Made by a program: the position numbers and the translations under genes. A stretch of 64,000 nt of DNA from an uncultured Pirellulaceae bacterium (lineage in GTDB: Bacteria > Planctomycetota > Planctomycetia > Pirellulales > Pirellulaceae): assembly GCA_937941455.1 (NCBI GenBank), contig CALDHM010000015.1:1-64000 (forward strand). The letters run 5' to 3'. This document shows, one piece after another, positions 53,865 to 64,000 of the stretch. The first letter of the stretch is position 1. The number at the start of each line of letters is the position of its first letter. The notes below the pieces were generated by a model that saw only the letters and a program-made list of their open reading frames with translations, searched no databases and was not told the origin of the DNA.

Positions 53865-54650
53865 TCAAATGGCCGAATAGTCAGCCCAGGTTTTCGGTGT
53901 CTCATAGACGCGGACATTGACCAATCCGGCCAGAAGTGGCTCGTCCGACAGCAGTTGCCAAATCACCTTGGCGATATGCTCCACTGACGGATTGACGCTC
54001 GCGAATTCGGGGAGGTCGAGATTGAGGTGCTTGTGATCGAACCGATCGATCACGAGGCGTTTTACTGCCGCCTCGAATTGGGCCAAAGGAAATGCCCCGT
54101 CGCCGCAGGCCACGGTAACCGCCACCACGTAATTGTGTCCATGGCCATTGGGGTGATTGCATTTGCCGAAATATTTTTGGTTTTCTGGCGGCGACAGGGC
54201 AGGGCAGTCGAGTCGATGAGCGGCGGAAAACTCGAACTCTTGCGTGAACGTCAACATGGGTGGATCCTTAAGAACGAGTCGGAAGCTCATGAATGGAGAG
54301 ACGGCCAGTTCAACCTGGAGCAATTCGATCGGCGCTGCAAACGCGTCAGCAAGCTGATCGGCCGAACGTATCATTTCGAGGTATGTCCATTCGTCAGCAG
54401 GGCGCGGGGCGTAGACCCTTTGCACGAACTCCGCTAGGCCTCGATCGATGTCTTGGATGTTGATCAGATAACCCGTGAGCGGATCAACGGGACCGGAGAC
54501 GGTCGCCCGGAGAATAAAAAAAGGGGCGATGGATAATCCCGATGCAGCGCCTGACCAAGCATTCCCCTTGATCGAGTAGTCCGCGGCGTTTCGGAGAAAA
54601 AATCGATATTCGCGAGTCAGACGAGTTTTCATGTGTTGTTGAACCGTCAC
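53865..54650 (-). CDS. Tandem 6-pyruvoyl-tetrahydropterin synthase / QueD-like protein
   Basis: A 261-residue protein with two PTPS-like halves. The C-terminal half (about 132-261) is complete: His145 in FSAAHRL, Cys164 with HPNGHGHNY (His170, His172), FDHKHLN, and Glu250. The N-terminal half (about 8-125) keeps the fold pattern (ATVSGPVDPLTGYLINIQDI) but lacks the zinc-binding His residues. Active members make a tetrahydropterin from dihydroneopterin triphosphate. It starts with GTG at 54650, overlapping the SDR stop by four bases, or at the ATG at 54632. Confidence 0.88.
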   Translation of the reverse strand: MTVQQHMKTRLTREYRFFLRNAADYSIKGNAWSGAASGLSIAPFFILRATVSGPVDPLTGYLINIQDIDRGLAEFVQRVYAPRPADEWTYLEMIRSADQLADAFAAPIELLQVELAVSPFMSFRLVLKDPPMLTFTQEFEFSAAHRLDCPALSPPENQKYFGKCNHPNGHGHNYVVAVTVACGDGAFPLAQFEAAVKRLVIDRFDHKHLNLDLPEFASVNPSVEHIAKVIWQLLSDEPLLAGLVNVRVYETPKTWADYSAI

Positions 54651-55354
54651 TGTCGCGTCACTGCGATCGCTTGGCCGCTCGATAAGCGAAACGGCACGGT
54701 GGTGATCCCCCAGATGGCTTCGGCGACCTCATCAGCGGAAACCGTTTGGTCCGCGGGAAAATCCGGAAATAAACCGCGCAACATCGGCGTATCTACAGCG
54801 CCGGGGCGAATCGAATAGGCGCGGATGCCGGCAGCGCGCCCCTCCTGTGCAAGAGCTTTCGTAAAGAGGTCGACCCAGGCCTTGCTGCTTCCGTAGACCG
54901 AAAAGCCAGGGAATGGATCCACGGCCGCGAGTGACGAAACGTTGACGATGATCCCGCCCCGTTGACGGGCCATGATCGGCCAGACCGCTTGGGTCAGAAA
55001 AAACAAACCCCTCACATTGGTATTCATTGTCAGATCGAATTCGGCAGCACTGATTTGGTCAAAGGGAATGCTGGATGCGTAACCGGCCGCGTTGACCAAA
55101 ATATCGATTCGCGAAAATTCCCGTTGCATTTGCTCAACGATTCTTTGCGGCGAGCGGGGATCATTGAGGTCAGCGACGCACGTTTGAATTCGTGACGCGG
55201 GAAAGGTCCGCAGGAGCGGCTCGGCGGCCTGCCTAAGTTTGTCCGCATTTCTTGCGGTCATTAAGATTTGGAATCCCTCGCGAGCGAATCGGTGGGCGGT
55301 TGCTAACCCAATTCCACTAGAAGCACCGGTAATCAAAATCACATGTTCGGCCAT
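54647..55354 (-). CDS. Short-chain dehydrogenase/reductase
   Basis: A 235-residue SDR. The NAD(P) motif is TGASSGIGLATA, NAAG lies in LVNAAGYASSIPF, the catalytic Ser-Tyr-Lys is in VSSLAAV and YGSSK, and PGAVDTP follows. An Arg just after the second strand (TARNADKL) suggests NADPH use. It is translationally coupled to the PTPS-like gene, so by analogy with eukaryotic biopterin synthesis it could be a sepiapterin-reductase-like enzyme; that is inference from gene order, since sequence alone cannot tell the substrate. Confidence 0.9.
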   Translation of the reverse strand: MAEHVILITGASSGIGLATAHRFAREGFQILMTARNADKLRQAAEPLLRTFPASRIQTCVADLNDPRSPQRIVEQMQREFSRIDILVNAAGYASSIPFDQISAAEFDLTMNTNVRGLFFLTQAVWPIMARQRGGIIVNVSSLAAVDPFPGFSVYGSSKAWVDLFTKALAQEGRAAGIRAYSIRPGAVDTPMLRGLFPDFPADQTVSADEVAEAIWGITTVPFRLSSGQAIAVTRQ

Positions 55355-55662
55355 AATGATTCCTATGCGGAGACCGCTTCGTTAGCGGCGACAACAGTCG
55401 TCGAGGAAACGAGTTAAACTTGCTTAAGGAAGTACAGTACTTGAAGATCAGCCGCCTTCCAATCTGGTCGCAATTCACCAGGCCCGCAATTGGGGTTGGC
55501 ACTTAACAACGTCGTCGAGTTTCGGTTAGACTAACCTGACGATGCTGTTTGCCGAAAACTTCCCGAAAAAACGCGTTTTCGTTCGCCGGCCCTGTCAAAT
55601 TCCGCTCAAGAGAACCGGCGTGAAGAACGCCTCCAATTCCGCGATTGTTGTGGAGCCAAATC
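55355..55662. other. Divergent spacer
   Basis: Separates the SDR/PTPS pair from the homogentisate dioxygenase gene. No gene is visible. GGAG at about 55651 is the likely ribosome-binding site for the ATG at 55663. Confidence 0.5.
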
Positions 55663-56832
55663 ATGCCCAGTTACCGCCGCTTGGGAAAACTTCCTCCGAA
55701 ACGTCATATCATCATGCCGAACCCGGAGAACAGTTTTCTCAACGAAGGATTGTATTACGAACACATCATCACAACGCAAGGGTTTGACCGAGCCTACTCG
55801 ATTCTCTACCATCTGCGGCCGCCGACGCGCGTGCTGGAGACCAAATCGGCTGGTCAAATTCCGATCGAGGCGGCTGACGACCGCGAGTTGCGACATCATC
55901 ACTTCAAGACGCAAGACCTGCCGCGCCGCGGTGAACCCGTGACGGGACGAGTCCCCATGCTCTTCAATGCCGACCTTGTGGCCTGGCGCTGCAAGCCTGA
56001 CACGCCGCAGCAGGAGTTGTTCCGAAATGGGGCGGCCGATGAAGTGATCTTCATCCACCAAGGGTCGGGCTACCTCGAAACTCTGTACGGCAAAGTTCCC
56101 TACCGGCGTGGGGATTACGTCGTGGTTCCCCGTTCGACGACCTATCGGATCGTTTCGGACAATATCCAACAGGAAGACCATTTGATCTTAGAGTGCTTCG
56201 CGCCGGTCCGCGTCCCGCAGCGGTATCATAACCCTGACGGGCAGATGTACTTGGGTGCACCGTTCTACGAGCGGGATTTCCATGCCCCCGAGGAGTTGTG
56301 CTTCGTGGATCGCGAGGAGCCTACCTCGATCCTGATCAAAGTCCATCAAAACCTCACGCGGGTCACGATGAGCCACCATCCCTTTGATGTTGTGGGCTGG
56401 GATGGTTTTCTTTATCCGTACACGTTCAACGCTTGGAATTTCGAACCGTTGACGGGGACGGTGCATTTGCCGCCACCGTTCCAGCAAACTTTCGAATGCC
56501 GTGGCTTTGTGATCTGCACGTTCGCGCCGCGATACTTGGACCACCACCCGCAGGCCGTCAAGGTCCCGTATGTACACAGCAATGTGGAGGCCGACGAAGT
56601 CCTGTTCTACGTGGATGGTGAATTCGGTTCGCGTCGCGGCGTCGGCTTGGGATCGATGACGCTTCATCCCGGCGGTATTCCCCATGGACCGCATCCGGGG
56701 ACCATCATGAAGAGCATGAAAATGGATCGAACTGACGAAATGGCTGTGATGTTCGATACCGATCGCCGACTTCATCCGACGGTCCAAGCGATGCAGGTCG
56801 ATGATCCGAGTTATCCAACCAGCTGGTTGTAA
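55663..56832 (+). CDS. hmgA: Homogentisate 1,2-dioxygenase
   Basis: A 389-residue cupin-type Fe(II) dioxygenase, started at the ATG at 55663 (MPSYRRLGKLPPKRHI). It opens the ring of homogentisate to maleylacetoacetate in tyrosine and phenylalanine breakdown. ADEVIFIHQGSGYLETLYG lies in the N-terminal cupin. In the C-terminal one, VPYVHSNVEADEVLFYVDGE and GIPHGPHPG supply the Fe ligands (His, Glu, His). Length is close to bacterial family members. The later pathway genes (maleylacetoacetate isomerase, fumarylacetoacetase) are not in the window. Confidence 0.88.
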   Translation: MPSYRRLGKLPPKRHIIMPNPENSFLNEGLYYEHIITTQGFDRAYSILYHLRPPTRVLETKSAGQIPIEAADDRELRHHHFKTQDLPRRGEPVTGRVPMLFNADLVAWRCKPDTPQQELFRNGAADEVIFIHQGSGYLETLYGKVPYRRGDYVVVPRSTTYRIVSDNIQQEDHLILECFAPVRVPQRYHNPDGQMYLGAPFYERDFHAPEELCFVDREEPTSILIKVHQNLTRVTMSHHPFDVVGWDGFLYPYTFNAWNFEPLTGTVHLPPPFQQTFECRGFVICTFAPRYLDHHPQAVKVPYVHSNVEADEVLFYVDGEFGSRRGVGLGSMTLHPGGIPHGPHPGTIMKSMKMDRTDEMAVMFDTDRRLHPTVQAMQVDDPSYPTSWL

Positions 56833-56879
56833 GCGTTGGCGTCATCCCGTTCCCCATATTCCTTGCCAGGTGACCTCCG

Positions 56880-57467
56880 ATGGAGATCGACTTTCGTTCG
56901 CTTGATCCGACCCAGTGTTATTCGTTGATGATTCGTGCGATTACGCCGCGTCCGATCGCGTGGGTTTCGACGATTTCCCCCCGTGGAATTCCCAATCTCG
57001 CTCCCTTCAGCTATTTCGCTGGCGTGGGTAGCTCGCCGCCAACGCTGATGTTTTCAACGTCCCTCAAATCGGATGGCACGCCCAAGGATACCCAGCGGAA
57101 TGTGGAAGCTAACGGCGAATTCGTTGTCAACATCGTGCCTTATTCCTTACGCAATCCGATGGCGATTTCTGCAGGAGAGTTCCCGTACGAGGAGAGCGAA
57201 TTCGAGCACGCCGGTTTGACCCCCATCCCTTCGCGGCTCGTCGAACCGCCGCGATTGCTGGAATCACCTATCAATTTCGAATGCCGAGTCCATGAGATCG
57301 TCAAGATCGGCTCCGCCACGGCGGTATTCGGGATCATCCAATGGATGCATGTCGACGACCGGATACTCAATGGCGAGCAAAAGATCGATCCCGAGTTGGT
57401 CGACAGTATCGGCCGCATGGGCGGATTGAGTTACAGTCGAACGTGTGACCGCTTCGAAATTAAATGA
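56880..57467 (+). CDS. Flavin-reductase-like FMN-binding protein
   Basis: A 195-residue split-barrel flavoprotein. RAITPRPIAWVSTISPRGIP, NLAPFSYFAGVGSSPPTLMF and GEFVVNIVPYSLRNPM match the FMN-binding flavin reductase-like family. It probably transfers hydride from NAD(P)H to FMN or serves as an oxygenase partner. It follows hmgA by 47 bases and overlaps the next gene by 23 bases. Confidence 0.93.
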   Translation: MEIDFRSLDPTQCYSLMIRAITPRPIAWVSTISPRGIPNLAPFSYFAGVGSSPPTLMFSTSLKSDGTPKDTQRNVEANGEFVVNIVPYSLRNPMAISAGEFPYEESEFEHAGLTPIPSRLVEPPRLLESPINFECRVHEIVKIGSATAVFGIIQWMHVDDRILNGEQKIDPELVDSIGRMGGLSYSRTCDRFEIK

Positions 57468-59595
57468 TGCTGATCCCTTGGCCCGTACCGATGACGACCC
57501 CAATCCCATGTTGCAATTAAACGCAGGACATCGAATTCCCGACAAAACGCTCGAGCAAATCGAAAAAATTCTCAAACAAGACATCGATCAAACGACTCGC
57601 TGGTCGACAATTATCCCGGCACTGCGAGGTAAGGCACGTCCGGAGGACTGGCGCGCCGTCTGGGAAAAATGCTTCGCCTCTTGGTCTGTCCAACAATATG
57701 GCCCGGCCCCGATGTGGCTGCCGGAGCCACGGGATCTGGAAAGCTCGAATCTGGCGCTCTGGCTGCGGGAGGCTGGCTTCGTTGACTGGACGGACTTCCA
57801 TCGCTGGAGTGTCACCGAGCGGGCGGCCTTTTGGGAGGCGATGGTCGGCCGATTGCCGATCCGGTTTCAGACGCCTCCGCAGGCGCTGGTGGATCTGCGC
57901 GACGGTATACCGGCGCCGCGTTGGTTTCCCGGATCACGGATGAATATTGTCGAAAGTTGTTTTGACGAAGACCTTGACCGCATCGCGATCATCGCAGGTG
58001 GGCCCCGGGGTCCGCTCCGGCGAATGAGTTACGGCGAATTATTGAAGCGGGTGCAGGTGATCGCAGGGGCCATTCGGCAAGCTGGGTTTTCGCCAGGGGA
58101 TCCGCTGGCAGTAGTTTTGCCGATGACCGCTGAGTCCGTTGCAATTTATCTGGGGGCGATCTGGTCTGGGTGCTCCATCGTTTCGATCGCTGACAGTTTT
58201 GCAGCCCGCGAAATCGCCAGCCGCCTGCGGATTAGCGGCGCTAAGGCGGTGTTTACTTACGATGCGATGGAACGGGGCGGAAGGACGATTCCGCTTTATC
58301 CAAAAGTCGCCGAGGCGACGGAATTGCCGATCATCGCGTTGCCATGCGACGAACGTTTGACGGTTGATTTGAGGCGCCAAGATGGTGATTACTCAACATT
58401 TATCGAGCGGGGTAAGGGAGAGCCGTTGGCTGTTCCGCATTATGCGGCGGCGGACGGCGTGATCAATATCCTGTTTTCTTCGGGAACGACGGGAGATCCC
58501 AAGGCGATTCCTTGGACCCATACGACCCCGATCAAATGTGCGGCTGATGGTTATTGTCATCAAGATCTGCAACCAGGCACGGTCACCTGCTGGCCGACGA
58601 ACTTGGGATGGATGATGGGGCCGTTTTTGATATTCGCCACCATGATCAATCGCGGCACGATGGCCCTCTACGAAGATGCTCCCGTGGGATCAGGCTTCGG
58701 CCGATTTGTACAAGACGCGGGTGTGCAAATGTTGGGGGTGATTCCCACGCTGGTCAAATCCTGGCGGGCCGCCCGGGACATGGAAGCCTTCGATTGGTCG
58801 CGAATCCATGTGTTCAGTTCGACCGGCGAGAGTTCGCAACCCGACGACATGTTTTATCTATCTTCGTTAGCCGGAATGCGTCCCGTCATCGAGTATTGCG
58901 GTGGGACGGAAATCGGTGGCGGCTACATTTCGTCGACCGTAGTCCAACCGAACGCCCCCAGTACTTTTTCGACTGCTGTGGTCGGCTTGGATTTCGTCAT
59001 CCTCGACGAGGCTGGTCAGGCAGCGACCGAGGGAGAACTGTTTCTCTTGCCCCCGTCGATTGGCTTGTCGACTCGACTCCTCAACCGTGACCATTTTGAA
59101 ACCTATTTTAGCGGTACCCCGCAGATCCCCAGCGGCATGACCTCGGCGAGTGGAAATGCCATCCGCCAAGGTCTACGTACCGGGGAACAAGTCGAGCCGC
59201 CTGTCTTGCGACGGCACGGCGACCATTTTCGGCGACTGGCAGGAGGTCAATTTGCGGCCGGGGGGCGGGTTGACGACACCATGAATCTCGGTGGAATCAA
59301 GGTCAGTTCCGCCGAACTAGAGCGGGTGATGAACGAGGTCGAAGGGATTCGCGAGACGGCGGCCATCGCAGTGGCCACTCGAGGAGGGCCCGAAGAATTG
59401 GTCGTGTTCGCCGTGTGCCATCGACCGAGGGACGCCGCAGAGTTGCTGGCGGCCTTCAATGCTCGGCTGAAGTCTGAGCTGAATCCGCTGTTTCGGGCAA
59501 AGGAAGTCCGCGTGGTCGATTCCCTGCCGCGGACAGCCAGCAACAAAGTGATGCGCCGCTTGCTGCGCGATTCCTTACTGCAATCGACGCAATGA
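57445..59595 (+). CDS. AAE17/18-like AMP-forming acyl-CoA synthetase
   Basis: A 716-residue acyl-activating enzyme starting with GTG at 57445 (an ATG at 57508 is an alternative). An N-terminal extension (to about 190) precedes the AMP-binding core: LFSSGTTGDPKAIPWTHTTP is motif A3, and CWPTNLGWMMGPFLIFATM, VIEYCGGTEIGGGYISSTV and DDTMNLGGIKVSSAELERV follow. The lysine motif PRTASNKVMRR closes it. The PIKCAADGYCHQDLQPG stretch recalls plant AAE17/18 rather than acetyl-CoA synthetase. It may activate a carboxylic acid such as acetoacetate or an aromatic acid arising from homogentisate breakdown. Confidence 0.88.
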   Translation: MTASKLNDADPLARTDDDPNPMLQLNAGHRIPDKTLEQIEKILKQDIDQTTRWSTIIPALRGKARPEDWRAVWEKCFASWSVQQYGPAPMWLPEPRDLESSNLALWLREAGFVDWTDFHRWSVTERAAFWEAMVGRLPIRFQTPPQALVDLRDGIPAPRWFPGSRMNIVESCFDEDLDRIAIIAGGPRGPLRRMSYGELLKRVQVIAGAIRQAGFSPGDPLAVVLPMTAESVAIYLGAIWSGCSIVSIADSFAAREIASRLRISGAKAVFTYDAMERGGRTIPLYPKVAEATELPIIALPCDERLTVDLRRQDGDYSTFIERGKGEPLAVPHYAAADGVINILFSSGTTGDPKAIPWTHTTPIKCAADGYCHQDLQPGTVTCWPTNLGWMMGPFLIFATMINRGTMALYEDAPVGSGFGRFVQDAGVQMLGVIPTLVKSWRAARDMEAFDWSRIHVFSSTGESSQPDDMFYLSSLAGMRPVIEYCGGTEIGGGYISSTVVQPNAPSTFSTAVVGLDFVILDEAGQAATEGELFLLPPSIGLSTRLLNRDHFETYFSGTPQIPSGMTSASGNAIRQGLRTGEQVEPPVLRRHGDHFRRLAGGQFAAGGRVDDTMNLGGIKVSSAELERVMNEVEGIRETAAIAVATRGGPEELVVFAVCHRPRDAAELLAAFNARLKSELNPLFRAKEVRVVDSLPRTASNKVMRRLLRDSLLQSTQ

Positions 59596-59620: not shown

Positions 59621-61039
59621 TCAAGTCATATCCGCGGCGCGAAACACGCAAAATGCGTATTGGTCGAGTACGGGGTCGGTGCTCGGTTTGCCTTTACGCT
59701 GGTAGAAATCCTTGACGGTCAGAGATTCGACCAATTCGAGTCGACTGGCTGCCCCCATCGATCGATGGTCGTCGCAACCGAACACGAACGCCTCTCCCAG
59801 GTCATCCATTCTCGCTAAGAATTCTTGCACTTCGGGGATCTGAGTTTTTCCGTTGAATACGGATTCCGAAACGTAGTCGATCCACAAGCGACTGTCCGGG
59901 TGTTGCAACAGTATGGCGAATGCGTCCAGCATCCGGCGGTTGATCGTTCGATCGAAATACATCGAGCAGCCTTCGAAAATGATCGCGGTTGGCAAACTCG
60001 GATTGAAACCGTGCCGCAAGAGCAGTTTGTCCACGGCATCCTGAAGAAAGTCGGCGGGAATCGAAACACGCTTCACCGCGGTCGAATTGGGCAACATCTC
60101 TGCGATTCGATTTCGCTCTTCGAGCATTTCCGGCAGGTCGAGGTCGAAGTGGACAACCTCTGGCAGAACGGCATGCAACTGGAACGGACGCATATCGAGC
60201 CCCGCTCCCATGTTGACGACTTGCCGCAAACCGGGGATCGAGCGAATTAACTCCTCTCCGTGTTGCGTGCGAGCTTGCACCATATCGACCAGTTGGGGCA
60301 GGGCGCGGTTGAGCTTTTCGGCGAGCAGAGCACCTTGGGGACCCGCCGCGATTTCGGTATGACTGGAGTCGACCCGGTAGTTGCGACCGTTTTCGGTGAA
60401 GTACGCCTTGGCTCGGACACCGGCAATCATCCGCGCCGACGCTTTGATTTTCTGATTGAACAGGGTTGAGGTTTTCTTGCCGGGTTCGAGCAATTGGATT
60501 GCTGGTTGGCAGAAATAAGTCATCTCCGCCTCGGCCACCAGTTCGCCGTTGGACTCGAAGGTGACGGGGAGTGTGACGAGAACCCGTTTGCCTTGAGCAT
60601 AGCGGGTCACGATTTTTTCGCGATCCTCGGGGCTGATTCGGCAGCGGCCGATCAGATGCCCGGTACTGGGGGCTTTGTATTTGACGTTCATGGCGGCCAG
60701 CCAGAGCGAAGCAGCTTCCTTGGTCGAGCACTTGTGGATTCCTGCCATGGGAACGCCCCGCAGCAATGAGACGATCGCCATGCCTCCGGTGTAATCAGCG
60801 CTGAGTGATATCAGCGCGGCCTGATGCGTCCCGTGCTGATTGGTGGTCGCGCGATTCAGCGGGAGCAAGGTTTCGGCATAACCCTCTTCTACTTTGGTCA
60901 CTTGCCAGTTGCATTCCTTACAAGCCGGCACGCAGCGGTGCATCAGTTCGGTGATTAATTCAGGGTTGACTCGGTTCCGGTAGTCTTCGTCCCACGAAAT
61001 ATCGAATTTGAGGAATTGATCAGTCGCTAACATTGTCAT
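59621..61039 (-). CDS. Hotdog thioesterase-like domain fused to LCMT-type methyltransferase
   Basis: A 472-residue two-domain protein. Residues about 25-185 form a hotdog fold of the DUF4442/YiiD-C type (NQHGTHQAALISLSADYTGG, the substrate-tunnel helix; AAMNVKYKAPSTGHLIGRCR). Residues about 195-470 form a leucine-carboxyl-methyltransferase (Ppm1/LCMT)-like SAM domain (QVVNMGAGLDMRPFQLHAVL, HFDLDLPEMLEERNRI, AIIFEGCSMYF). An acyl-binding module joined to a carboxyl methyltransferase suggests that a fatty or polyketide-like carboxylate is handled and then O-methylated; this is inference. It converges on the acyl-activating gene 26 bases away. Confidence 0.88.
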   Translation of the reverse strand: MTMLATDQFLKFDISWDEDYRNRVNPELITELMHRCVPACKECNWQVTKVEEGYAETLLPLNRATTNQHGTHQAALISLSADYTGGMAIVSLLRGVPMAGIHKCSTKEAASLWLAAMNVKYKAPSTGHLIGRCRISPEDREKIVTRYAQGKRVLVTLPVTFESNGELVAEAEMTYFCQPAIQLLEPGKKTSTLFNQKIKASARMIAGVRAKAYFTENGRNYRVDSSHTEIAAGPQGALLAEKLNRALPQLVDMVQARTQHGEELIRSIPGLRQVVNMGAGLDMRPFQLHAVLPEVVHFDLDLPEMLEERNRIAEMLPNSTAVKRVSIPADFLQDAVDKLLLRHGFNPSLPTAIIFEGCSMYFDRTINRRMLDAFAILLQHPDSRLWIDYVSESVFNGKTQIPEVQEFLARMDDLGEAFVFGCDDHRSMGAASRLELVESLTVKDFYQRKGKPSTDPVLDQYAFCVFRAADMT

Positions 61040-61319
61040 GCAGGAAAGAATTACACGAAAAATAGCGCCTGGCGGCGCGCGGCGACCGCTTTAAGATAAC
61101 TGCTACTGAAAAGATTTCAAGTTCGATTTTCGGAACATCGTGGATTCTCGAACGTGGTGGGGCGGCTGAATCGATGCAATCGGATTAAAGCTTAAATCTT
61201 CATGTATTTTTCTCGAAGCACTAGCGAATTGAATGGGCACCGCAGGTTTATGAACTACGTTTTGTCGCAGCTTTTTTTGAAGTCTACCACCCAGAGCTTG
61301 TTCTCACCTGTTGTCGACA
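61040..61319. other. Divergent spacer
   Basis: Under 300 bases between two divergent genes. No gene or strong hairpin is visible; promoters for both flanking genes should lie here. Confidence 0.4.
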
Positions 61320-64000
61320 ATGTCGTATTATCACAAACCCGATCAGTATTTACTCGATCTCGTCGGTAATAATCGGCTGGACAAATCGAGGGTTAGTGAT
61401 CGGCCCACCGATAGCGAGTTCGTTGCCGAGATCGTTCGCGATAAAGACAACGCGCCCTCAATCGTGAGCTGGATGTTGCGGAAGGCGCTGAATCCTCGCA
61501 AGCAAGAAGCGTTCTTGGAGGAGATGGCGCGTGTCAGTACTGTCGAGCATCGCAGCTTTATTCCCCCGCTGGAATTCGGAACGACCGAACAGTTCATCTA
61601 CACAATTCAGCCGAAGGTGTTCGACAGGCGGCTTACGGAGATCGTCGGACTTGGGCAAGCCAGCGATCAGAAGCTGAGGCGGGCTTTGGGAATTTGCTGC
61701 GATGTGCTGGAAGTATTGGAGAAAATTCACGAGCTCGGGTGTTTGGCCCGCAACGTCCGAGCCTCCAATCTTTACTTGATGGGGAATCATGCTTGTTTGG
61801 TCAGTGCCAGTCCTTGGGAATACTGCAACCGTCTGCATCAGAACGACGATGCGGCCAAGGAGCACGCCCGCTATGCCCCTCCCGAGGTCGCTGGTTCAAT
61901 TCAGGCCGAGGTCGGCCCCGCTGCGGATCTCTATTCTGTTGGAAATCTGCTGTTCTATCTCCTCACGGGGCGCGAGCCATTTCAGGGGACATCGGTCAGT
62001 ACCATTCTCTATCAACATGTCACCGTTGATCCGCAGCTGTTTTTGGCGGAATTCGATTTCCCAAAGCCTCTTGTAGAGATCATTGCTCGATTACTCAGCA
62101 AGGATCCATGTGGCCGCTATCAACGAGCCAGTGCGGTGTTGCATGACTTGAGACAATTGCAACAGCGTTTGCATGACGGAATCTCTGTGGATGATTTCGT
62201 TCCCGGTTGCGAAGATGTGCGAAGCACGCTCGTGCCTCCGTTATTCGTCGGCCGACGCGCGGAATTGAATCGTCTGCAGAGCTTGTTGCAGGGTTGCCAG
62301 CAGGGACAACGTGGACACTCCATCGCGATCACCGGACCAGTCGGCTGCGGCAAAAGTCGGCTGATCGAGGAATTCGTTCGTATCCATGCGCCGCAATCGC
62401 TGGCGGTTTACCGCAGTATCGCGATTGAAAACTCGCATGAAACAGCGCGGAACCCGATCCTTAGAATCATCGAACAGGTCAAGGAGCGTGCCGCTACCTA
62501 TGACGCCTTCGCTCGGCGCCTCGCCACGCGTCTGCAAAACTATCGCAGCGAAATTTCGGTCATGTTTCCCGAAATAACGCAAACTTTGGGCTGGGAGTGG
62601 CAAGGGACCTATACGGTCGAGGATCTCAACAGGGCGCAGGTCGAGAACGCACTCGTCAGTATCCTTGCTAATCTCGGCGACGTCGATCAGCCGGCGGTGA
62701 TTTGGATTGACGATTGCCATCACTTGGACGCACAATCCCTAGCCGTTGCTCGAAGATTGTGCGATTCGCTGCCGAAACACACGCTGTTGATTTTTACGCT
62801 TAGCAGCGAAGGGAACGGCGACAAAGAATTTCTGGAATCGATTCAAGTCGAACAGAACTATGTCTTGGGAGGGTTGAACGATTCTGAAATCGAGCAACTC
62901 TTAGGATCTTCGGGAGGTCGACTTCCTGAGACGGCCATTACCGTCATCAAGAGCCTAGCTGAGGGGAGCCCCTACATGGCTATGGCGATCCTCAATGGCC
63001 TGATCGAAAAACGCGCGATCGTCTTCGATACCAACCATTGGCGAGTCGACAGCCGCAAACTCAATACAATTCAGACCTCGGAAAGCTCTGTCAAAGAATT
63101 GGTGAATCGGCTATCCGATATGCCGCATTCGGTCAAGCAAGTCTTGTACGTCGCCGCCACGGCAGTCAATGAATTCGACGAGGAGCAACTGACCGAAATC
63201 TGCCGCACCACGCGCGCCAAAGTGGATGAATGCATCGTCTGGTCGCGAAGTAAGCGGATCCTTTGGCAGTTGTCGAGCGGCAAGTACTTGTTCGTGCACG
63301 AGAAAATCAAGGAATCGCTGCTCGCGGAAATCTCGCCGTCTCAACGGCGGGAACTGCATTTGTCATTCGCACATTACCTGGAGCGATTCGAGCCCGATAA
63401 TGTCGCAGAACTTGCGGTCCATTACCATTTCGCCGACGCTCATGAACGAGCATTGGCTTATGCCCTCCGGGCGACGGCCCAGGCTCAGCGGCTGCAATCG
63501 CTGGAGCAGGCGGAGGAGTTTTTGCGGATCGCCATGCTGGGACTGGCCCATGCTGACGCGATTACCGCTCATGAGGTCTACTCTCAACTCGCCGACACGC
63601 TGATGTTGCTGGGGAGATATGACGAAGCAGCGCAATGGTTGGATAAAACGCTCGAGTATTCTTTGCCCCCGTTGGAGCTCGCCCGGATCAAGATGAAAAT
63701 CGGCAATCTGGCCTTCAAACGCGGCGACAAACAGTCGGCCAGCCAGCGTTACATTTCTGCTCTCAGAGATTTGGGGTACAGCGTTCCTGAAAATCGAATC
63801 GATCTGGGCCTGCGCTTGATCAAGGAGCTGGGAATCCAGTGCTTGCATACGCTGTTGCCGTTTTTATTCGTCGGACGGCGCCGCGAACAACCGAACGAGA
63901 GACGGCGTTTGATTTGGCGATTACACAGCCGGGTCGGACATGCGTTTTGGTATACCCGCGACCACTTCTATACCCTCTGGGCCCATTTACGGCACTTGAA
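61320..64000 (+). CDS. Pseudokinase-STAND ATPase regulator (3' end cut by window)
   Basis: Open from the ATG at 61320 to the window end, so at least 893 residues. Residues about 60-285 have a kinase-like C-lobe (AHARYAPPEV region with APE-like PPEV, AADLYSVGNLLFYLLTGREP). The catalytic HRD motif reads LARNVRASN (142-150), the DFG position is VSASP, and no clear VAIK Lys or Gly-loop is seen, so phosphotransfer is unlikely. A predicted AAA/STAND ATPase follows from about 305: FVGRRAELNRL, Walker A GPVGCGKSR (339-347) and Walker B VIWIDDCHHL (about 459-468). Helical, TPR-like repeats come next. Comparable kinase-ATPase fusions (PknK-like) act in signalling; here the kinase part would be a sensor or scaffold. 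Confidence 0.85.
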   Translation, partial: MSYYHKPDQYLLDLVGNNRLDKSRVSDRPTDSEFVAEIVRDKDNAPSIVSWMLRKALNPRKQEAFLEEMARVSTVEHRSFIPPLEFGTTEQFIYTIQPKVFDRRLTEIVGLGQASDQKLRRALGICCDVLEVLEKIHELGCLARNVRASNLYLMGNHACLVSASPWEYCNRLHQNDDAAKEHARYAPPEVAGSIQAEVGPAADLYSVGNLLFYLLTGREPFQGTSVSTILYQHVTVDPQLFLAEFDFPKPLVEIIARLLSKDPCGRYQRASAVLHDLRQLQQRLHDGISVDDFVPGCEDVRSTLVPPLFVGRRAELNRLQSLLQGCQQGQRGHSIAITGPVGCGKSRLIEEFVRIHAPQSLAVYRSIAIENSHETARNPILRIIEQVKERAATYDAFARRLATRLQNYRSEISVMFPEITQTLGWEWQGTYTVEDLNRAQVENALVSILANLGDVDQPAVIWIDDCHHLDAQSLAVARRLCDSLPKHTLLIFTLSSEGNGDKEFLESIQVEQNYVLGGLNDSEIEQLLGSSGGRLPETAITVIKSLAEGSPYMAMAILNGLIEKRAIVFDTNHWRVDSRKLNTIQTSESSVKELVNRLSDMPHSVKQVLYVAATAVNEFDEEQLTEICRTTRAKVDECIVWSRSKRILWQLSSGKYLFVHEKIKESLLAEISPSQRRELHLSFAHYLERFEPDNVAELAVHYHFADAHERALAYALRATAQAQRLQSLEQAEEFLRIAMLGLAHADAITAHEVYSQLADTLMLLGRYDEAAQWLDKTLEYSLPPLELARIKMKIGNLAFKRGDKQSASQRYISALRDLGYSVPENRIDLGLRLIKELGIQCLHTLLPFLFVGRRREQPNERRRLIWRLHSRVGHAFWYTRDHFYTLWAHLRHL

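Follow-up and report, generated by a model that had tools for sequence, protein, structure and literature searches.

The fusion and its locus

The window analyzed here, a 64,000-nucleotide stretch of contig CALDHM010000015.1 from an uncultured Pirellulaceae bacterium, carries a gene whose product joins a hotdog domain to an LCM-type methyltransferase. The gene lies at 59621-61039 on the minus strand and is a single ATG-started open reading frame without interruption, encoding 472 amino acids (aa). Divergent from it is the gene for a large hybrid kinase, beyond which a FadL/TodX-type outer-membrane protein is encoded on the strand of the fusion. The original prediction for this locus described the fusion and was silent on the hybrid kinase from ~61311 (plus strand) and on the FadL-type pore beyond it. 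The features are as follows.

59621..61039, minus strand: hotdog-methyltransferase fusion, 472 aa (open reading frame, Pfam, full length in 35/199 family genomes, 34-protein alignment, AlphaFold2 model)
60485..60994, minus strand: hotdog domain, residues ~16-185, with the thioesterase-type pair Asn67/Asp82 (DUF4442, invariant pair, MadB fold match)
59624..60463, minus strand: LCM-type methyltransferase domain, residues ~193-472, with G278xG280LD282xR284, D301 and E356GCSMY361 (PF04072, conserved columns, fold matches)
61040..61310: intergenic region separating the divergent fusion and kinase genes (no convincing motif in common)
61311..64000, continuing to contig position 67175, plus strand: 5' part of the hybrid kinase gene, whole product ~1954 aa (Pfam); this gene extends past the end of the window

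The two domains had been proposed as a hotdog-like domain and an LCM-type methyltransferase, and both Pfam profiles score above their cut-offs. The hotdog family DUF4442 (PF14539) covers residues 28-174 with 32.6 bits against a cut-off of 25 (E 1.1e-7), and LCM (leucine carboxyl methyltransferase, PF04072) covers residues 240-374 with 81.9 bits against 22.3 (E 7e-23). An AlphaFold2 model computed with 34 homologues as input (mean predicted local distance difference test score (pLDDT) 83.1, predicted template-modelling score 0.62) has hotdog-type secondary structure first and then a Rossmann-type methyltransferase, and each half matches solved structures of its fold. Residues ~15-187 match 8ayv (MadB of Pseudomonas putida, Z 17.0), 1t82 (16.7), 1sh8 (16.2) and 1yoc (16.1), which together with the DUF4442 match bears out the hotdog fold predicted for residues 25-185. 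From ~residue 190 to the end, the best scores are with ML2640c of Mycobacterium leprae (Z 24.8 for entry 2uyo and 24.6 for 2uyq, which has S-adenosylmethionine (SAM) bound), LCMT1 (24.2), PPM1 (23.8), TYW4 (23.7) and Rv0731c (23.5). A profile search of the PDB with the fusion found no hotdog match with E < 0.1; the first half is accordingly called a hotdog domain from its Pfam score, the model and the pattern of residues. Among the homologues (our handles beginning with L denote loci, those with G genomes), the DUF4442 score lies below cut-off in L076 and L044, and L028 gives no match. The window protein remains under the curated cut-offs of the NCBIfam methyltransferase subfamily TIGR00027 (86.7 bits, cut-off 93.55) and of YiiD_C (Mad, PF09500; 23.8 bits, cut-off 27), while the homologue in L022 reaches 27.4 bits with the latter.

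Conservation and spread

The fusion was sought in 199 genomes of the family, drawn evenly from a larger group and including the window's own. Matches were found in 40, of which 35 are full length and 5 comprise the methyltransferase part only or nearly so. Full-length copies in the other family genomes share 45-81% identity with the window protein, and all 34 aligned proteins cover both halves. Frameshift or misassembly as the source of the fusion, a concern raised by the original prediction, is ruled out by the intact reading frame and the full-length copies: the conserved fusion enzyme is real.

Outside the family, the fusion looks rare. Among 392 genomes of the phylum, searched for their best four candidates each, three match: the window's own, G502 at full length and G388 in the methyltransferase part only. 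Named records that hold the fusion include Rhodopirellula europaea, several metagenome records of Planctomycetales, Planctomycetaceae, Planctomycetota and Planctomyces, and one proteobacterial metagenome contig (L028, 39% identity). Two homologues depart from the usual length. One (L029:7794-8918) is without residues 1-158, most of the hotdog half being gone, and the other (L049:566-2479) is drawn as a reading frame of 637 aa whose ~172 extra N-terminal residues may be a start-site artefact.

In the hotdog half, N67 and D82 are invariant in 34/34 proteins, and Q68, G70, T71 and H72 are conserved; in the methyltransferase half, the SAM-binding motif residues G278, G280, L281, D282 and R284 are likewise invariant, and D301 and E356-G-C-x-M-Y-F are conserved. 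Over 30 loci, mean pairwise identity is 64% for the hotdog half and 51% for the methyltransferase half.

Predicted chemistry of the two halves

Asn67 and Asp82 lie 15 residues apart, as do the pairs listed for hotdog thioesterases: Gln32/Glu47 in SaPaaI, Gln48/Glu63 in EcACT and Asn50/Asp65 in 3F5O; the same source lists related hotdog enzymes with other pairs, Gly65/Glu73 and Gly53/Asp61 (PMC13114782). In the thioesterase-family protein 3e1e, a Gln and an Asp align at the N67/D82 places (weak match, E 0.15). With the PaaI/THEM2 thioesterases the fusion shares an Asn/Gln plus Asp/Glu pair, carried on loop and helix at that spacing; it differs from them in being DUF4442 by profile and in its union with a methyltransferase.

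The closest solved hotdog folds, MadB (8ayv, Z 17.0) and 1t82 (Z 16.7), the latter named as MadB of Shewanella (PMC8666670), point to another chemistry. Mad decarboxylases use a catalytic Asn45 on a similar loop, and the MadB loop residues Asn45, His47 and Thr49 (PMC8666670) correspond, when paired by eye, to Asn67, His69 and Thr71 of the fusion, the first of them invariant. These likenesses would suit a housekeeping role in fatty-acid or biotin synthesis, the fusion acting as a MadB-like malonyl-acyl carrier protein (ACP) decarboxylase, as a malonyl-ACP methyltransferase resembling BioC, or as both. Against this, E. coli MadA carries Thr at the Asp82 site by an ungapped reading by eye of L088 from the loop Asn (MAFFT instead places a one-residue gap in the MadA helix), the YiiD_C score is under its cut-off, and the partner domain is a methyltransferase, not a GNAT domain. 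Because of the 15-residue spacing of the pair and the Thr of MadA at the Asp82 position, thioester hydrolysis appears likelier than decarboxylation from the sequence. The MadB-type decarboxylase, a candidate raised by the fold match, became less likely owing to Asp82. A housekeeping enzyme is also at odds with the presence of the fusion in just 35/199 family genomes and with a signalling kinase as its usual neighbour. Substitution for BioC was ruled out: BioC-like matches (E <= 1e-20) occur in 6/35 fusion genomes and 36/164 others (Fisher p 0.65) and so are not complementary to the fusion, and BioC scores above its curated cut-off in 8/199 genomes, none of them a fusion genome. We regard the housekeeping role as most unlikely.

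The methyltransferase half resembles the LCM/PPM enzymes (LCMT1, PPM1, TYW4, ML2640c and Rv0731c) in scoring above cut-off with PF04072 and in fold (best Z 23.5-24.8), and differs from them in its N-terminal hotdog partner. LCMT1 and PPM1 methylate the carboxylate at a protein C-terminus. Since known members of the fold methylate carboxylates, an acyl carboxylate is, by analogy, a reasonable candidate substrate for the fusion. The same analogy admits methylation of a protein carboxylate in the manner of LCMT1/PPM1, the hotdog half serving as a ligand-binding regulatory domain; the fold matches these two proteins (best Z 24.2 and 23.8), and the partner kinase would be an obvious protein target. 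Yet the thioesterase-type pair is kept in 34/34 hotdog halves, and conservation is higher there than in the methyltransferase half (64% vs 51%), which would not be required of a mere binding domain. We consider protein methylation very unlikely. The original prediction proposed a single protein that acts on an acyl group before methylating a carboxylate; this remains plausible, as both active-site signatures are conserved.

The hybrid kinase beside the fusion

By Pfam, the kinase contains Pkinase, AAA_16, TPR, GAF, HisKA, HATPase, receiver and Hpt domains; its start codon is uncertain, TTG being the one listed. A simple hydropathy scan of the window kinase revealed no clear transmembrane segment (maximum 19-residue mean 1.44). 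When the sensor region (residues 600-1440) was modelled alone, the prediction (pLDDT 89.6) showed a TPR-like helical superhelix with a GAF-like domain after it. Foldseek mainly matched this model to generic TPR proteins; the matches, among whose first 50 is a single STAND protein (6mfv), are uninformative on the ligand. The best-conserved stretch of the kinase, residues 901-1000, is also among the best conserved in the sister kinases described below and is for that reason not specific to the fusion partner.

With two candidates scored per genome, we defined the kinase subfamily as matches above 1100 bits, where the scores show a gap from 1182 to 1038. The subfamily occurs in 30/35 fusion genomes and in 2/164 others (Fisher 4e-28), and the association holds within seven genera (66 genus-labelled genomes, Cochran-Mantel-Haenszel (CMH) p 2.9e-6). 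The kinase adjoins the fusion in 29/35 fusion genomes, in 28 of them within 1 kilobase (kb) by search coordinates; the 29th case is G082, where locus L043 shows a full-length kinase 399 bases from the fusion. G082 is included in this adjacency count but enters the CMH tally as fusion only.

Where a fetched locus contains both genes (30 cases), they diverge in 25 and run in the same direction in 5, and the occurrence of both arrangements indicates that the link survived rearrangement. Distances among the fusion proteins and among the kinases are correlated (Pearson 0.88, Spearman 0.46, 435 pairs), as shared descent alone could produce. A shared regulatory motif in the intergenic regions was tried and rejected: the best 10-mer occurs in 5/20 loci, against a maximum of 3 in 20 simple shuffles, and looks like low-complexity sequence in related genomes.

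The shared divergent intergenic region of 25/30 loci could also mean that the kinase only regulates expression of the fusion, whose methyl esters would then serve membrane or storage lipid homeostasis. The patchy distribution of the fusion, and its coupled presence and absence with the kinase within genera, argue instead for a dispensable paired system, and we think a homeostatic role quite unlikely.

The FadL-type pore and other linked genes

In 16/30 fetched fusion-kinase loci, a FadL-type gene adjoins either the fusion or the distal end of the kinase gene, and looser clustering adds three more (L054, L055, L057). Pfam, run on two of these proteins, assigns them to PF03349, which covers both FadL and TodX. 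Besides the kinase and the FadL-type gene, the sole cluster found in more than 5 of 42 loci is NfeD-type (Pfam); smaller clusters were not all identified.

In four loci the genes stand on a single strand in the order receiver-HD-GYP, kinase, fusion, FadL (L022, L023, L024 and L026, the contig of the last ending before FadL); the receiver-HD-GYP protein was recognized by Pfam in one of them and by 70-76% identity in the others. A separate arrangement occurs at L083 in G138, where a kinase of the fusion-linked subfamily stands without a fusion, a LuxR-type regulator gene lying upstream and a receiver-HD-GYP gene ~4 kb downstream.

Sister kinases with a PhcB-like methyltransferase

The next-best class of kinases, which we call sister kinases, comprises 47 matches in 44 genomes, with G082 (fusion-linked) and G143 (partial) set aside. 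None of the 44 genomes contains the fusion. In 10/12 fetched sister loci, the gene divergent from the kinase, in the place of the fusion, encodes a methyltransferase of one homologous family, here A4, identified by Pfam in 7/9 tested and by alignment and tblastn in all ten. Across the 199 family genomes, 33/47 sister kinases have an A4 methyltransferase within 3 kb. At E <= 1e-40, A4 is found in 50 genomes, and 34 of its 53 places are beside a sister kinase; just one of the 50 (G093) also has the fusion, 1/199 overall (Fisher 0.0004 for avoidance). A tblastn search of A4 over 71 sequences gave matches limited to the ten sister loci and three plasmid loci, with none in a fusion locus, and comparison of A4 with the fusion detected no relation (hhalign probability 0.4 on the percent scale, E 0.15).

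Other parts of the module recur in the sister loci. A receiver-HD-GYP-like gene (33-37% identity, Pfam not run) is near the kinase in 9/12, and a FadL-type gene is present in 4/12, with a fifth in L106 by Pfam. L097 also encodes a free Hpt protein. The two loci that have no PhcB-like methyltransferase, L104 and L107, have polyketide synthase genes nearby.

L097:4282-5406: PhcB-like methyltransferase gene divergent from the sister kinase, with equivalents in L098-L103, L105, L106 and L108
L104:12414-17975: polyketide synthase genes (acyltransferase, dehydratase, reductase, carrier and thioesterase domains)
L107:51-1766: polyketide synthase piece (ketoreductase, carrier and thioesterase)

The name PhcB-like derives from a relative of A4 carried by a plasmid of Paraburkholderia graminis (L109; E 2e-12, 25% identity across 85%). 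This relative heads a row of methyltransferase, histidine kinase, receiver and receiver genes. This order is close to that of the Ralstonia operon, phcB-phcS-phcR-phcQ, in which PhcR carries a histidine kinase domain (PMC8578825). The plasmid search matched 138 records, predominantly from Rhizobium. One relative, at L110:2727-5864 on an Enterobacter ludwigii plasmid, is annotated as a type I polyketide synthase and shows 31% identity to A4 at its C-terminal end. Public annotation names some proteins of this kind after 3-hydroxypalmitic acid methyl ester synthesis.

A proposed signalling module

Most likely, the fusion belongs to a signalling module that is a variant of fatty-acyl methyl ester or diffusible signal factor (DSF)-like signalling with new parts for making and sensing the signal. 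Within that frame we lean, by analogy with known systems, towards a model where the fusion makes an acyl methyl ester that is used as a signal read by the linked kinase. In this model, the hotdog domain would cleave an acyl thioester (acyl-ACP or acyl-coenzyme A (CoA)), and the LCM domain would move a methyl group from SAM onto the freed carboxylate, yielding a fatty-acyl (or modified acyl) methyl ester that would act as a diffusible signal. After crossing the outer membrane via the linked FadL-type pore, the ester would be detected in the cytoplasm by the hybrid kinase, which appears to be soluble and would use its receiver and Hpt domains to relay phosphate to a response regulator. This regulator would, in several relatives, be the receiver-HD-GYP protein, whose action would lower cyclic-di-GMP. 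The data establish the fusion and its conserved residues, its linkage to the kinase and FadL-type genes, and its replacement in the sister modules; the two activities, the substrate, the role of the product as signal, the transport direction and the output are inferred. Two apparently unrelated methyltransferases alternate beside one kinase lineage, in company with an outer-membrane pore for hydrophobic compounds, and this pattern suggests that the kinase responds to the methylated product.

The main rival is drawn from TodX/TodST, a toluene system. By this analogy, the module would sense and handle a hydrophobic acid from outside: the FadL/TodX pore would import it, the soluble kinase detect it and the fusion methylate it for modification or detoxification. 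The pore family covers both FadL and TodX, the kinase appears soluble, and the gene set fits import and response as well as it fits signalling. Several observations speak for an internal source. Only the NfeD-type cluster recurs beyond the kinase and the pore (among the clusters identified), the divergent position beside the sister kinases is still taken by a methyltransferase, though of another kind, and two of these kinases are near polyketide synthase genes; these genes and the retained methyltransferase place suggest an endogenous acyl product. We judge an outside compound unlikely.

Several results weigh against the methyl ester signalling model. Fisher tests ignore phylogeny, and the CMH test corrects for descent only in part. 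Six of the 35 fusion genomes are without a subfamily kinase on the same contig; G047 and G141 carry one on another contig, and G001, G035, G092 and G166 gave no kinase match at E <= 1e-200 with two candidates scored per genome. Conversely, two kinase genomes, G138 and G154, are without the fusion. Fragmented genomes and the limited number of candidates scored per genome can hide genes. The intergenic regions of 20 loci showed no convincing shared motif. The window kinase has no clear membrane segment, and the hydropathy maximum in four relatives is 1.35-1.97, unlike the membrane-bound RpfC. A FadL-type gene was not found in 11/30 loci by either count, some of their contigs being short. No receiver-HD-GYP gene adjoins the window kinase; the best homologue is encoded on a different contig, and proteins of this type are widespread (109/199 genomes). 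As for the sister modules, the name PhcB-like was given on the basis of a single gene context and 25% identity, and the histidine kinase domain of PhcR has no counterpart in the two receiver proteins of L109. Of three plasmid relatives opened, only L109 stands in a phc-like row; L110 is inside a polyketide synthase and L111 is beside unrelated genes.

Considering both sides, we find evenly balanced the broader proposal that this planctomycete family (probably Pirellulaceae) and some relatives possess their own class of cell-cell signalling, with one kinase lineage, interchangeable and apparently unrelated methyltransferases, acyl methyl esters, a FadL-type pore and an HD-GYP phosphorelay output. 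No description of the fusion or module was found in a limited search of the open-access literature. A paper on the planctomycete Stieleria states that Pirellulaceae might rely on signalling molecules and offers quorum sensing by its compounds only as speculation (PMC7293339). For the question of planctomycete signalling, the gene set supplies a named enzyme, a named candidate for the receptor and a prediction of the molecule's class, which makes it directly testable in cultured species. If the model is true, the fusion would be a compact, single-protein route from acyl thioesters to methyl esters.

The left-hand neighbours

The original prediction had drawn attention to an acyl-activating enzyme beside the fusion.

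57445..59595, plus strand: acyl-activating enzyme resembling acetoacetyl-CoA synthetases (regarded as a neighbour outside the module)

This gene sits in a row of homogentisate-dioxygenase-like, flavin-reductase-like and acetoacetyl-CoA-synthetase-like genes (window 55645-59595), whose best NCBIfam equivalog matches are far under their cut-offs. Its cluster occurs in 3/42 loci compared, the window, L021 and L030, the last two belonging to the same genome (G093). The enzyme is therefore adjacent to the fusion in one other genome only, and its candidacy as a functional partner was ruled out. Further to the left (window 53865-55354), a 6-pyruvoyl-tetrahydropterin-synthase-like gene adjoins one for a short-chain dehydrogenase, and the G093 locus contains both of these clusters too.

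Comparison with known signalling systems

One close parallel to the proposed module is the Phc system of Ralstonia (PhcB/PhcS/PhcR/PhcQ), in which PhcB makes methyl 3-hydroxymyristate or methyl 3-hydroxypalmitate and PhcS senses it (PMC11960443). In both systems, the gene for a SAM methyltransferase is linked to that for a histidine kinase, and a fatty-acid methyl ester is the proposed product in ours; moreover, the methyltransferase of the sister planctomycete modules is related to one in the phc-like row of Paraburkholderia graminis. The differences lie in the parts. The methyltransferase of the fusion is LCM-type, joined to a hotdog domain and of no detectable relation to the PhcB-like family, while the planctomycete kinase is a Ser/Thr-kinase/ATPase/hybrid protein of ~2000 aa, often linked to a FadL-type pore. 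Passage of a signal through such a pore would have a precedent in Sinorhizobium fredii, where FadL is reported to take up long-chain acyl-homoserine lactones (PMC9938287).

The Rpf/DSF system of Xanthomonas (RpfF, RpfC, RpfG) offers another parallel. Its hybrid kinase RpfC contains receiver and Hpt domains, and the partner protein RpfG carries HD-GYP (PMC5391125); the planctomycete kinase has the same receiver and Hpt domains, and a receiver-HD-GYP gene is present in some loci. In contrast, the fusion has no crotonase-type domain, a methyltransferase standing in the synthase position instead, and the planctomycete kinase is without clear transmembrane helices. If the proposed model is correct, the planctomycete module would combine the principles behind Phc and Rpf signalling with a soluble receptor of the ATPase/TPR type.

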